62,073 bases of DNA, from positions 1 to 62,073 of the forward strand of contig JAQTIE010000010.1 in the NCBI GenBank assembly GCA_029433475.1, given 5' to 3'. This DNA comes from Neisseriaceae bacterium ESL0693. Its GTDB lineage: Bacteria > Pseudomonadota > Gammaproteobacteria > Burkholderiales > Neisseriaceae. Both the position numbers and the translations under genes were made by a program. Below the pieces are notes generated by a model that had not been told where the DNA came from, searched no databases, and was given only the letters and a program-made list of their open reading frames with translations. Below are positions 7,919 through 15,526 of the stretch, in pieces (position 1 is the first letter of the stretch; each line of letters starts with the position of its first letter).

Positions 7919-8596
7919 ATGCAGCCTGATTCACGTTTATTGATTATTGATACCAGTACTTCATTTTTATCACTGGGCTTACACCAAGAGGGTGAAACCG
8001 TGTGTGTTTATGAAGCAGCCGGCACGCGGCAATCTGAACTCATTTTACCCGCCATTGATCAACTGCTGCATAAGGCCAGCCTGACACTGACTGATCTTGA
8101 TGCCATCGTTTATGCTCAGGGGCCCGGTGCATTTACCGGCTTACGCATTGGTCTGGGCGTTGCCCACGGTCTGGCCATGCCGTTTGCACTGCCCTTGATC
8201 GGCATTCCCTGTCTGGATGCCGTTGCCGCTTTAGCCCCTGACGAGCCTTGCGTACTGGCAGCCACCGATGCGCGCATGAATGAATTATTTTATGCCTGGT
8301 ACGACACCAGAATTCAGCAACGCCTCAGCGATGATCAGGTGGCACCGGCCAGCCAGATTCAGCTACCTGAGGGGCAGACTCATGGCGTGGGCGTGGGGAA
8401 TGCCTTTGCTTTAGACATCACCTTGCCGGTACAAGGTAAAAACATTATGCCCACTGCCCGGCAATATGCTGATCTGGCTCTGTCTGGCCGCTATGCCGCC
8501 AAGCCTGCCGCCGAAGCCGGTTTATTGTATGTCCGCAATAAAATTGCCCTGACTGCCAGCGAGCAGGCGGCACGGCGGCAACAGGCCGGCGCATGA
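7919..8596 (+). CDS. tsaB: tRNA threonylcarbamoyladenosine biosynthesis protein TsaB
   Basis: This 225-residue ASKHA-fold protein carries the family signature GPGAFTGLRIGLG and the N-terminal LLIIDTSTS. TsaB is the partner of TsaD in making t6A37 on ANN-decoding tRNAs. The stop overlaps the rimI start by four bases (ATGA type), so tsaB, rimI and the next gene form an operon. The tsaB-rimI pairing is common in proteobacteria. Confidence 0.95.
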   Translation: MQPDSRLLIIDTSTSFLSLGLHQEGETVCVYEAAGTRQSELILPAIDQLLHKASLTLTDLDAIVYAQGPGAFTGLRIGLGVAHGLAMPFALPLIGIPCLDAVAALAPDEPCVLAATDARMNELFYAWYDTRIQQRLSDDQVAPASQIQLPEGQTHGVGVGNAFALDITLPVQGKNIMPTARQYADLALSGRYAAKPAAEAGLLYVRNKIALTASEQAARRQQAGA

Positions 8597-12264: not shown

Positions 12265-12629
12265 GCATTCAGCTTAAATAAATAACAACACCTGTTATTC
12301 AGGCCAGTCCATATAACCCTTAGTCAGCATCAACCCTCTGCTAACCCATGCATAAACCCTCTTACTGTCTGCCAGCATCATATTGATACTTTTGCCTCAT
12401 TCACTTTAATACCATAAAACAGACTATTGCCATTTCTAAACACAACTCTGACTACCTGAATCCATCCATTGACATCAGCATAAAAAAGCGGCAATATCAG
12501 ATTACTGCATTGACATTCAATAGTATGAGCAGATTGTTATCATCAGACAGACAATTCGACTTCAGTTTTTCTGGACAGTATTTTTATGTCTGTTTCCCAT
12601 GCCATTAATACAGCTTTTATGGCTTTATG

Positions 12630-12702
12630 GTGGACAATGGCGAGGAGGCTTTACGCCTACTGGTTCTGGTTGCCAGTCTGCTAACCTTGCCATTTGTCTG
12701 CC
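12630..12702 (+). ncRNA. C4-antisense-RNA-like element, copy 1
   Basis: An outer stem (AATGGCGAGG at 12636-12645 with CCTTGCCATT at 12685-12694, extended by GTGGAC with GTCTGC) encloses hairpin 1 (AGGC/GCCT) and hairpin 2 (ACTGG/CCAGT). One outer-stem pair is A-T here where copies 2-5 have G-C, so both sides changed together. The layout matches the C4 / P4 CI family of phage antisense RNAs. Transcription is inferred. Confidence 0.55.
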
Positions 12703-12755
12703 TCCACCGTAATATTTTTATTGCCTGCTGCCCGGTCATTAATACAACTTTCCAT

Positions 12756-12830
12756 GGCAGACAATGGCAGGGAGGCCTTGTGCCTACTGGTTTCTTTGTG
12801 CCAGTCTTCTAATCCTGCCACCTGTCTGCC
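12756..12830 (+). ncRNA. C4-antisense-RNA-like element, copy 2
   Basis: Same fold as copy 1. The outermost stem here is GGCAGAC with GTCTGCC, fully Watson-Crick. Copies 4 and 6 use GTGGAC with ATCCAC or GTCCAC, which is again a paired change. The hairpin 2 loop is TTTCTTTGTG, different from the other copies, as expected if loops carry target specificity. The decayed leader follows this copy. Confidence 0.55.
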
Positions 12831-13017
12831 TGCCCTCACCCTTGTCTGAAAGCAATTAAGAGCAATTTAACCCAGACGAAAGATATTATTATGGCTGCAA
12901 TCCGCCAGTATGTTTACCCCCTATCCTGACGCATATCATTATGTGCTTATTCTCTGCCAGGTTTCAGACCTTTGTTTTTAATCATTGGCTGGTTTTCGCC
13001 ACTGCCAGAAATGCCGC

Positions 13018-13056
13018 ATAAAAACCTATGCCGCAAATCAGAAAATCACTATATAA
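13018..13056 (+). pseudogene. Decayed third paralogue of the small-protein genes
   Basis: The DNA aligns with the starts of the two intact small genes at 14134 and 15260. The context TGCCGCAT is kept, but the start codon has become ATA and the GGAGG ribosome binding site has become GAAA. Reading on gives KTYAANQKITI and then TAA, to be compared with MKTFAVNHELLA and MKTYPVDYNLLA. The rest of the gene is lost. Confidence 0.6.
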
Positions 13057-13402
13057 CCACAACACAATCTAACCTCATACAAGCAGCTTAGCTACCGATT
13101 GATCAGACAGAAGACCGATTGAATATATTAAAGCTGGAAAAAATAAGGATCAAAGAATTTATTAAGCATAAATTAAAAACAGGTCATTGCCATTTTTGAT
13201 AATGATCTGCTTTTTAACCTCACAACACCAATCTACCTGAATCCATACATTGACATCAGCATAAAAAAGCGGCAATATCAGATTACTGCATTGACATTCA
13301 ATAGTATGAGCAGATTGTTACCATCAGGTAGACAAGCTGCCTTCAGTTTTTCTGAGTGGTATTTTTATGTCTGTTTCCCATGCCATTAATACATCTTTCT
13401 AT

Positions 13403-13477
13403 GGTAGACAATGGCAGGGAGGTCTTGTGGCCTACTGGTTCGTTGTGCCAGTCTTTCAACCCTGCCATTTGTCTGCC
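13403..13477 (+). ncRNA. C4-antisense-RNA-like element, copy 3
   Basis: Outer stem AATGGCAGGG with CCCTGCCATT, hairpin 2 ACTGG/CCAGT with loop TTCGTTGTG (identical to copy 5). Hairpin 1 is altered (AGGT...GCCT), so it is partly weakened in this copy. It lies in the first tandem unit of module B. Confidence 0.55.
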
Positions 13478-13642
13478 CTCACCCTTGACATCAACACCAA
13501 AAACCTGCAATATCACGCCACCACGTTCAATAGCGTGGGCAGTTTTGAAAGACTGTAAGAACACGGCAGACAAGCCGCCTTTAATTCCCTTTTGGGTGGT
13601 ATTTTTATGTCTGTTTCCCATGCCATTAATACACTTTTCTAT

Positions 13643-13716
13643 GGTGGACAATGGCAGGGAGGCCTTGCGCCTGCTGGTTCGTGTTGCCAGTCTTTCAACC
13701 CTGCCATTTATCCACC
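13643..13716 (+). ncRNA. C4-antisense-RNA-like element, copy 4
   Basis: Outer stem AATGGCAGGG with CCCTGCCATT, and distal stem GTGGA with TCCAC (Watson-Crick, where copies 3 and 5 have TCTGC and use G-T pairs). Hairpin 1 AGGC/GCCT; hairpin 2 CTGG/CCAG with loop TTCGTGTTG. Second unit of module B. Confidence 0.55.
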
Positions 13717-13881
13717 CTCACCCTTGACATCAACACCAAAAACCTGCAATATCACGCCACCACGTTCAATAGCGTGGGCAGTTTTGAAAGACTGATATAC
13801 AACGGCAGACAAGCCGCCTTAATTCCTTTTTGGGGCGGCTATTTTATGTCTGTTCCCCATGTCATTAATACCTCTTTCTAT

Positions 13882-13955
13882 GGTGGACAATGGCAGGGAG
13901 GCCTTGCGCCTACTGGTTCGTTGTGCCAGTCTTTCAACCCTGCCATTTGTCTGCC
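13882..13955 (+). ncRNA. C4-antisense-RNA-like element, copy 5 (with complementary target downstream)
   Basis: Outer stem 13889-13898 with 13938-13947; hairpin 1 arms 13899-13902 and 13908-13911; hairpin 2 arms ACTGG 13912-13916 and CCAGT 13926-13930. The hairpin 2 loop TTCGTTGTG (13917-13925) is perfectly complementary over nine bases to CACAACGAA at 13996-14004, in the leader of the small gene at 14134. C4 RNAs act by exactly such loop-to-leader pairing. No expression data are available here. Confidence 0.6.
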
Positions 13956-13995
13956 CTCATCATTGTTTGAAAGCAATGTAAGGGTATTTTAAGAC

Positions 13996-14028
13996 CACAA
14001 CGAAAGATATCATGATGATTATATCTTT
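13996..14028 (+). promoter_or_regulatory. Leader target and adjacent hairpin before the first small gene
   Basis: CACAACGAA (13996-14004) is the complement of the copy 3 and copy 5 hairpin 2 loops. It runs into a perfect 8-bp inverted repeat, AAAGATAT (14003-14010) and ATATCTTT (14021-14028). The related leader of module C keeps ACGAAAGATAT without the 8-bp repeat. This is a plausible switch region 130 to 106 bases before the start codon. Confidence 0.5.
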
Positions 14029-14133
14029 ATGCCTCATCAAAGCGCATTCCCTGCGTTTACTCCTCACTCAAACGCTCGTCTCTGAATTCAATCATTGCCA
14101 GACATTTTGTCGCAAGAATTTCGGAGGTGTCGC

Positions 14134-14388
14134 ATGAAAACCTACCCTGTTGACTATAATCTATTAGCCTCTTCTGCTGACACATTGCTGGTTTTTGATT
14201 ATTTCAGCCAGCATGTGGAAATCATCGCTGAGGTGATAGAAGCATTAACCAAGCCGGAAGATGTGTTAGTTAAAAGACTGGCCGATATGCTGATACAAAT
14301 GGCTACCCAAGTACAAAATTGTGAAAGTGGTCGATTGGCGGCTAATTTGTGTACAGTGTTTGATGGTGGCGAAGAAATCAAACAATAA
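14134..14388 (+). CDS. Small helical protein of unknown family, paralogue 1
   Basis: This 84-residue protein starts MKTYPVDYNLLA. The ATG at 14134 is chosen over an upstream in-frame ATG (14095) because CGGAGGTG lies six bases before it and the same context precedes the paralogue. It is soluble, acidic and predicted mostly helical, with no signal peptide or membrane segment. Conserved features shared with the 15260 gene are RLADML, QNC near residue 67 and L-C-V-DA/DG near the end. I do not recognise the family. Position behind C4-like elements suggests antisense control, and in phages such targets are Icd/Ash-type host-inhibiting proteins, but no similarity to them is evident. Confidence 0.8.
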   Translation: MKTYPVDYNLLASSADTLLVFDYFSQHVEIIAEVIEALTKPEDVLVKRLADMLIQMATQVQNCESGRLAANLCTVFDGGEEIKQ

Positions 14389-15259
14389 AGATTAAACACC
14401 CATCTTTCCCGCTTGCGTTATTTAACCGTATCACAAGCGGATTCAAAACCACTGTTTAGTAACAATATACACCCATACATAATATATTATTTTTATCATA
14501 TCTTTTGGTTTTGCATAATTATGCTAAATCAAAACCGGGCAGTTTTATATTTACACCAGCAGTAAGCTTTATTAATTTCAATAATATTTCATTAGTAATT
14601 TCATAAAAATAAATGGTTCATACCACAACAGAAACAGTTTATTGTCATTTAAATAACAATCTATTGTTATTGCACTAATTTAAATTACTGTACTATATCA
14701 AAAACCACCCATCCATAAAAATTCAGCCATTGATACCAGCATCAAAAACGGCAACATCACGCCATCACGTTCAAAGCGTGAGCAGCTTTAGAAGGTTGCT
14801 GCACAAAGACAAGTAAGCCGCCTTATCTTTTGATCTGGGCGGTATTTTATGCTTATAATCCATGTCATTGATCTAATTTCCATGGTGGACAGTGGCAGAG
14901 AGGCCTTGCGCCTGCTGGTTCTTCGTTTGGCCAGTCTGTCAACTCTGCCATTTGTCCACTCTCACTCTTGACATCAGCATCAAAAAACGGCAATATTACG
15001 TCACACGTTCAATAGCGTGGGCAGTTTTGAAAGACTGTTAAAGTACGGCAGACAGGCCGCCTTAACTCCCTTTTGAGTGGTATTTTTATGTCTGTTTCCC
15101 ATGCCATTAATACACCTTTCTTAAGATCAGTACGAAAGATATTATTATGGCTCTAATCTGTCAGGCATTTTCACGCCTTAGCCTAGCGCATTTGATGCGT
15201 TTACTCTCCAATACATTAAATAATCATCATAGACTTGATGCCACCTTCGGAGGTGCCGC
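14389..15259 (+). repeat. Module C of the repeat island
   Basis: After an AT-rich spacer (14400-14700) the unit restarts with TTGATA at 14730, the GCCGCC/GGCGGT hairpin and one C4-like element (14885-14959). A second unit begins with TTGACA at 14968 and is cut short at about 15120, just where its own C4-like element should begin. A leader follows with TACGAAAGATATTATTATGG (about 15130-15149) and AGCGCAT then GCGTTTACTC, both also present in the module B leader. Confidence 0.65.
14885..14959 (+). ncRNA. C4-antisense-RNA-like element, copy 6
   Basis: This copy has the longest stem: GTGGACAGTGGCAGAG pairs with the 17 bases from CTCTGCC to GTCCAC, giving 16 pairs with a single bulged T. One pair is A-T where copies 1-5 have G-C, a change on both strands. 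Hairpin 1 is AGGC/GCCT. Hairpin 2 is CTGG/CCAG with loop TTCTTCGTTTG, whose TTCGT can pair with ACGAA in the module C leader. Confidence 0.58.
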
Positions 15260-15526
15260 ATGAAGACCTTTGCTGTCAATCATGAATTACTGGCGCCGGT
15301 TGCCGATGCTTTGCTTAAACTGGATCGCTTTAGCTGGTATGCAGACGTGCTGGCAGCAAGTATGAAATACTGTGCGCAACAGCAGAATTATTTTTTAATC
15401 GAACGGTTGGCCGATATGCTTGAAGAGCTGGCCGGCGAAGCGCAGAATTGTCAGGCGGCGTATTTGTCGGCTGATCTGTGTTGTGTGCTTGATGCCGATA
15501 CCGGCCTTAATCCATTAAATGGATAA
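15260..15526 (+). CDS. Small helical protein of unknown family, paralogue 2
   Basis: This 88-residue protein starts MKTFAVNHELLA and is clearly related to the product at 14134 over its whole length (shared MKT, RLADML, QNC, ADLCCVLDA). The ribosome binding site and start context TTCGGAGGTGCCGCATG is almost identical to that of the paralogue. It has no signal or membrane segment and is acidic. A strong terminator follows. The divergence between the two proteins, much greater than that of their leaders, suggests they may have different partners or targets. Function unknown. Confidence 0.82.
   Translation: MKTFAVNHELLAPVADALLKLDRFSWYADVLAASMKYCAQQQNYFLIERLADMLEELAGEAQNCQAAYLSADLCCVLDADTGLNPLNG

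Follow-up and report, generated by a model that had tools for sequence, protein, structure and literature searches.

The array of C4 RNA elements between positions 12469 and 15263 of the window (the whole analysed stretch of 62,073 nucleotides (nt) from Neisseriaceae bacterium ESL0693) is very probably a cluster of chromosomal cassettes of the phage P1 immunity type, which are many in this genome, nearly independent of each other and self-repressing. The host belongs to the genus Snodgrassella and is a bee-gut bacterium. Each C4 carries two antisense segments, a′ and b′, whose letters match target sites upstream (a1 and b1) and downstream (a2 and b2) of it. The reading is directly supported by the architecture of the units, the C4 fold, the cognate complementarity of RNA and targets, the linkage to small genes, and purifying selection on two of the gene families. 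The initial annotation, which had recognised an array of six C4-like elements, was incomplete: it overlooked the target sites, the small genes at 14134 and 15260, a seventh unit without C4, and the multiplicity across the genome.

The C4 label of the array elements is supported. All six match the Rfam C4 model (RF01695), scoring 48.2-52.9 bits where the gathering threshold is 45, and the outer stem enclosing two hairpins, proposed earlier from the letters, is visible in the Rfam alignments of the six copies. The stem changes that had been named (A-T versus G-C in copies 1 and 6, CA/TG versus TG/CA in the distal stem) are present in the alignment rows. The proposed covariation of RNA structure was borne out as well: among the 25 pairs of the fold, 12 change on both sides, while shuffles, which do not preserve relatedness among copies, gave 3.0 (standard deviation (sd) 1.3) and 0 of 500 reached 12. 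This alignment holds 39 of the 41 Rfam matches in the genome (C23:168005 and the near-duplicate C23:287453 were omitted); its 25 pairs are 97.4% paired, and pairing falls to 27-49% when the partners are slid by 1 to 3 columns. Three copies do form tandem repeats, with a spacing of 240 and 239 base pairs (bp). The C4 family as known from phage P1 is thus indicated by the joint sequence and structure score, by covariation and by the order a1, b1, C4, a2, b2, leader open reading frame (ORF), gene.

A complete unit consists of promoter-like boxes, a1, b1, a hairpin, C4, a2, b2, a short leader ORF and a gene that overlaps it, where b2 lies shortly 5′ of the short ORF. The phage P1 immI record (c4, icd, ant) has the same order, a1, b1, C4, a2, b2, icd, ant1, and its sequence has a similar hairpin 5′ of C4 (CCGCA..TGCGGTATTTTTG). 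The CI RNA of phage P4 is also an antisense RNA from the immunity region and acts on its own leader. The name P4 CI was set aside for our elements, as their layout agrees in detail with that of P1. Three gene families, MKT, MHK and MYS, lie 3′ of our units, with 19, 9 and 2 intact members, respectively, plus 2 MYS genes that are broken by reading. The leader ORF and the gene overlap by 4 nt (ATGA) in 16 of 16 MKT units, like the 4-nt overlap of P1 icd and ant1; in 8 of 9 MHK units the overlap is 8 nt. An overlapping leader ORF at b2, in the position of P1 icd, was found in 24 of the 25 MKT and MHK units examined.

The leaders of 23 of the 41 units were aligned, anchored at their TTGAC/TTGAT match. 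This first box is TTGACA in 21 units, TTGACG in one and TTGATA in one. A -10-like box lies 3′ of it, and then come three hairpins: a first one, that of a1, and a long terminator-like one. Changes on both sides, counted without a shuffle control, affect 5 of 6 pairs in the first hairpin, 1 of 5 in a1 and 6 of 7 in the outer terminator stem; the inner terminator stem is absent from the consensus structure predicted for this alignment. In the array region, terminator-like sites on both strands combined number 8, against 2.7 (sd 1.7) in shuffles.

How well do the antisense letters of a unit fit its own targets? Pairing with the own flanks beats 10,000 permutations at each of the four site pairs, with 40 units tested upstream and 35 downstream, and when letters were permuted within a protein family only, 0 of 20,000 permutations reached it for each of the four. 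The permutation tests covered 40 of the 41 copies, C23:168005 being excluded, and the within-family a1 and b1 tests 33 of these 40 units, with the 7 lacking a recognised a1 left out. For the 24 units with an intact gene taken separately, the result was again 0 of 20,000 within-family permutations for each site pair. Swapping the a′ letters within the family lowered a1 pairing in 97 of 102 comparisons with none against, and swapping b′ lowered b1 pairing in 100 of 108, also with none against (22 intact-gene units, those with a recognised a1). For the downstream sites of all 24 units, a2 pairing was lower in 111 of 120 a′ swaps with 3 against, and b2 pairing in 119 of 124 b′ swaps with 2 against; these comparisons are mutually dependent, and the remainders are ties. 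In a cross-match table that kept 22 of 28 units, the own a2 and b2 together scored strictly highest in 15 of the 22, and four of the seven other units are two locus pairs sharing one code.

The same layout in cis was found in 49 distinct C4s outside Snodgrassella (kept from 70 scored loci), with z-scores of 7.9-15.4 and 0 of 10,000 permutations. Targets in cis thus look like a general trait of C4, and what is new here is the number of copies, their setting and the genes.

Several results weigh against the reading of self-repressing cassettes. The 13 copies without a gene, of which C21:28256 is solitary and the other 12 lie within arrays, have z-scores of 1.7 (a1), -0.1 (b1), 1.8 (a2) and -0.2 (b2); 974, 10,576, 870 and 11,515 of 20,000 permutations equalled or exceeded the observed pairing, so that the signal is weak at most for the a sites and absent for the b sites. 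The division into copies with and without a gene was set by eye with the pairing table already seen, and a first grouping gave a similar outcome; C2:12750 has no gene, and C5:128987 and two C24 units have a broken one. The MYS units show a weak a2/b2 match or none, and the MKT units C2:238641 and C22:152857 match poorly downstream. In the ninth MHK unit the gene lies 490 nt away and has no overlapping leader. Promoter-like sites in the array region are no more frequent than in shuffles (10 versus 9.6), and the scan detected only one of the array boxes. RNAalifold predicted no common structure 3′ of C4, and because of this the support for an a2 hairpin is a reading by eye. Finally, b′ divergence exceeds that of third codon positions in 17 of 45 MKT pairs and in 10 of 15 MHK pairs. 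Diversifying selection on a′ and b′ was considered and gained no support: in MKT pairs they are no more divergent than third codon positions, and for this reason selection for separate specificities is unsupported.

C4 lies upstream of 18 of the 19 MKT genes, the exception being unit 7 of the window, and of all 9 MHK genes. The median ratio of nonsynonymous to synonymous substitution rates (dN/dS) is 0.17 for MKT (76 of 136 pairs, from 17 of the 19 genes) and 0.11 for MHK (35 of 36 pairs, 9 genes), using pairs with dS from 0.05 to 1, and all values are below 1: purifying selection acts on both families. The MHK gene G000:C22:172470 (locus L067) starts with ATA, the other eight with ATG.

Compared with P1, the ant gene is replaced here by small proteins without a family match. 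MKT, MHK and MYS had no match in Pfam and only weak ones in other databases (best E 0.014-0.28), and no convincing family match gave any of the three an Ant-type antirepressor identity. Profile comparison by hhalign revealed no relation among MKT, MHK, MYS and a C4-linked protein of 118-119 amino acids (aa) found in congeners (8, 7, 2 and 4 sequences, respectively; the congener protein was cut to its first 110 residues, and MHK included congener relatives). The window MKT protein, modelled from two sequences, is predicted to be a two-helix hairpin (mean predicted local distance difference test (pLDDT) 73, predicted template modelling score (pTM) 0.47). MKT was present in one of 61 genomes, its own; it was also not found in genome_contigs, a set possibly without this genome or very near ones. 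MHK has distant relatives in 8 congeners; by eye, a C4-like sequence precedes two of these (L097, L098), and model R1, built from 39 C4s of our genome, gave weak matches (24 and 26 bits) upstream of the MHK relatives in G011 and G008. A phage origin of the families was also considered and rejected, MKT having no match in IMG/VR or phage records and MHK none in phage records.

In the window the array is composed of the following parts, listed by position and strand.

12469..12497, +: promoter-like boxes of unit 1 (TTGACA, 17 nt, CAATAT), by reading; the layout matches the 23-unit leader alignment, and the promoter scan missed it
12623..12708, +: C4 copy 1, array-internal, without its own gene (RF01695, 52.9 bits)
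12750..12836, +: C4 copy 2, without its own promoter, a1 or gene (RF01695, 50.7 bits)
13250..13278, +: promoter-like boxes of unit 3 (TTGACA, 17 nt, CAATAT), by reading
13397..13483, +: C4 copy 3, array-internal (RF01695, 51.8 bits)
13485..13513, +: promoter-like boxes of unit 4 (TTGACA, 17 nt, CAATAT), by reading
13540..13555, +: a1 target of unit 4, CAGTTTTGAAAGACTG, to which a′ of copy 4 is complementary
13567..13613, +: long terminator-like hairpin of unit 4 between b1 and C4, CAGACAAGCCGCC ... GGTGGTATTTTTATGTCTG, by reading
13637..13722, +: C4 copy 4, array-internal (RF01695, 50.4 bits)
13724..13752, +: promoter-like boxes of unit 5 (TTGACA, 17 nt, CAATAT), by reading
13779..13794, +: a1 target of unit 5, able to form 11 contiguous Watson-Crick pairs with a′
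13812..13840, +: 11-pair terminator-like hairpin of unit 5, 5′ of C4, from the terminator scan
13876..13961, +: C4 copy 5, immediately 5′ of a leader ORF and gene (RF01695, 48.4 bits)
13962..13977, +: a2 target, ATTG TTTGAAAG CAAT, by eye a hairpin, forming 7 Watson-Crick pairs with a′ of copy 5
13996..14004, +: b2 target, CACAACGAA, just 5′ of the leader ORF start, 9 Watson-Crick pairs with b′ of copy 5
14012..14137, +: leader ORF of unit 5, 41 aa, in the position of P1 icd, with a 4-nt ATGA overlap with the next gene
14134..14388, +: first MKT-family gene, 84 aa, without a family match
14730..14757, +: promoter-like boxes of unit 6 (TTGATA, 16 nt, CAACAT), by reading
14783..14798, +: a1-like site of unit 6, a poor match to its own C4 (score 11.5)
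14878..14966, +: C4 copy 6 (RF01695, 48.2 bits)
14968..14997, +: promoter-like boxes of unit 7 (TTGACA ... AATATT), from the promoter scan
15022..15048, +: a1 and b1 of unit 7, C4 missing, by reading
15129..15136, +: b2-like site of unit 7, AGTACGAA, by reading
15147..15263, +: leader ORF of unit 7, 38 aa, its end overlapping the next start codon
15260..15526, +: second MKT-family gene, 88 aa, sharing 38% identity with the first

Complementarity of the a and b sites is full in copy 5, partial in copies 1, 3 and 4, and weak in copies 2 and 6. The upstream part of copy 3 is 92% identical to that of unit 1 (repeat D7), and its a1 is of the copy-1 type. Copy 5 scores 105 bits with model R1, which was itself built from these copies. 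The unit 7 cassette (14968-15263) has lost C4 and kept the promoter-like boxes, a1, b1, b2, leader ORF and gene. This gene should be unrepressed, unless some other C4 acts on unit 7.

The window array is one of many such places in the genome. In 2.23 Mb on 25 contigs there are 41 Rfam C4 matches, 35 of them over the cut-off, and model R1 finds 45 places, namely 40 of the 41 Rfam matches and 5 new ones. The match missed by R1 is a copy in an operon resembling a type IV secretion system (T4SS). This divergent C4 (locus L062 of G000, 8006-8092) lies, by eye, within a conjugation-like operon and is followed by a 252-aa protein that looks BRO-N/Ant-like.

The 13 congeners have 0 to 3 C4 each (one of the two scans scored at most 59 candidates per genome). 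Among 369 genomes of the class, our own included, at least 24 have a C4 match (at most 11 candidates scored per genome); a deeper scan, made on 8 of those with more matches, found no more than 10 C4 in each, and 14 control genomes gave no C4 match. A class of C4 scoring 80-91 bits occurs in 12 of the 13 congeners, and the 118-119-aa protein lies behind it in 9 of the 12; named relatives of this protein come from S. alvi (two) and S. gandavensis (one). A second class of 68-71 bits occurs in 9 of the 13. The three inspected loci of the second class (L164, L165 and L166, around 1501-1586) lie near an hpt-like gene by eye, with no more than a short ORF behind. In genome G321, from another family of the class, C4s form a tandem array (L156, L146) in which two neighbouring pairs are spaced by 354-355 bp; behind it lie small ORFs and, by eye, a DUF927-like ORF, as in a P4-like satellite. 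Kinship of our families to the small ORF behind these tandem C4s was considered, and hhalign gave none.

On its upstream side the array adjoins a Na+/H+-exchanger-family gene and the transfer RNA (tRNA) genes tRNA-Val and tRNA-Asp, and on its downstream side the PCMT (pcm) and SurE genes. The absence of phage genes nearby, stated in the initial annotation, agrees with the 20 of 88 window ORFs (at least 100 aa) that were scanned: none is a phage structural, integrase or replication gene, 19 belong to cellular families and one has no family. In a comparison meant to locate the orthologous site in congeners, 13 pcm loci, the window's own among them, had no tRNA in flanks of up to 1.5 kb, so this comparison is silent on an empty site. 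The array has no blastn match in phage records, and two exact Snodgrassella-type C4 core patterns had 0 matches in viral contigs.

Elsewhere in the genome, some units sit between housekeeping genes and others beside CdiA-like modules, and 6 of 10 neighbouring proteins scanned contain PT-VENN, Fil_haemagg_2 or TPS domains. CdiA-like toxin modules adjoin MKT cassettes at loci L063, L080, L081 and L082 (G000), three of which are contigs of 3-4 kb, as if the assembly had been broken by repeats. Two MKT units lie directly before arrays of clustered regularly interspaced short palindromic repeats (CRISPR) with 28-nt repeats and 60-nt spacing. These arrays (L074, 8010-8655, and L079, 8418-8882, both G000) begin a few hundred bases behind the MKT cassettes and have the repeat GTTCACTGCCGCATAGGCAGCTTAGAAA, which we take to be of type I-F. 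The MKT proteins at the two sites are nearly identical, and duplication may explain this.

C4 is best known as a phage RNA, and one may ask whether these regions are only what decaying prophages or satellites have left behind, with no present function. Two tRNA genes adjoin the array, several units are chimeric or without C4, three have a broken gene, and cognate pairing is largely gone in the gene-less copies, all of which would suit such an origin. Against it, the tested MKT (17) and MHK (9) genes are open with the low dN/dS medians given above, pairing is preserved next to an intact gene, and the two C4 score classes are found again in 12 and 9, respectively, of the 13 congeners. MKT is not in IMG/VR, nor are MKT and MHK in phage records. 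We regard this explanation as very improbable. A superinfection-immunity library, in which C4 copies, and chiefly those without a gene, would target in trans any incoming phages or satellites sharing their a/b code, is unlikely. C4 acts so in P1 (as described in PMC5320573), the fold is kept in gene-less copies, and some of these fit targets elsewhere, as C23:300285 does those of C10:522. However, neither the core patterns in viral contigs nor the array in phage records found a counterpart, and conservation of pairing tracks the adjacent gene rather than the gene-less copies.

A type I toxin-antitoxin-like function, where the leader peptide or the small protein is harmful and C4 is the labile antitoxin RNA, is one form of the self-repressing cassette and not its opposite; we consider it possible, though somewhat doubtful. 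It would fit the blocking of a short ORF, to which a gene is coupled, by an antisense RNA, the position of several units beside CdiA-like toxin modules, and the annotation of P1 icd as an inhibitor of cell division. On the other hand, no toxin family was matched, MKT is predicted with modest confidence to be a two-helix protein, and the same role would be needed in two unrelated gene families.

Under the preferred reading, that of self-repressing chromosomal cassettes, each complete cassette would give one transcript with promoter, a1, b1, terminator-like hairpin, C4, a2, b2, leader ORF and small gene, the latter translated by coupling to the leader ORF. C4 would be excised from this transcript, and its a′ and b′ would pair with a2 and b2. 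This pairing would cover the start of the leader ORF and therefore keep the coupled gene off. Through pairing with a1 and b1, C4 probably exerts feedback on transcription at the hairpin that precedes it. Since the a/b letters vary per unit with matching changes in the targets, most cassettes would answer to themselves. In the gene-less copies the match is mostly gone; they are probably relics of recombination or trans-acting RNAs of weak effect. RNase P cutting to an RNA of about 77 nt, repression, coupling and feedback are here supposed to work as in P1, from which they are carried over; C4 excision, leader block and feedback would also follow by analogy from the RNA data on Acinetobacter baumannii (PMC5320573). 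Our guess is that the small proteins are effectors, antirepressor-like or toxin-like, that are harmful or costly when unrepressed.

Chromosomal multiplication of C4 is already known from A. baumannii, where the Group 1 small RNAs (PMC5320573) are of the C4 family and number 21 sequences with a variable a′ loop; they are expressed and apparently processed. Their targets are left open in the accessible text of that report, whereas here a C4 that adjoins a gene is linked to this small gene and has its cognate targets in cis. Our elements belong to the same RNA family as Rfam C4 (RF01695) and the c4-a1b1 motif listed by Weinberg et al. 2010 (PMC2864571), who described C4 in Proteobacteria and phages; unlike here, the accessible text of that work has no genome-wide cognate set or controlled gene families. 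We found no paper on C4 RNAs in Snodgrassella in a literature search whose coverage mostly did not extend to subscription papers, and PMC11472050 and PMC12802169 contained no passage relevant to C4.

In comparison with P1, this chromosome has about 46 C4 copies with many a/b specificities, and the surroundings of the window array showed no phage gene among the ORFs scanned. We tentatively suggest that the P1 switch has become a chromosomal regulatory code, with about 46 C4 units as nearly separate self-repressing circuits over several unrelated orphan families, perhaps serving host competition or defence. Most units of such a code, still conjectural in our view, would have their own letters, and they would be scattered among housekeeping genes, islands of CdiA-like toxins and the two CRISPR arrays. 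Chromosomal C4 RNAs are here tied to concrete genes, a point left open for A. baumannii in the part of PMC5320573 available to us. A single genome offers a natural panel of matched antisense RNA-target pairs, and therefore the rules of C4 pairing specificity during copy multiplication become directly testable.

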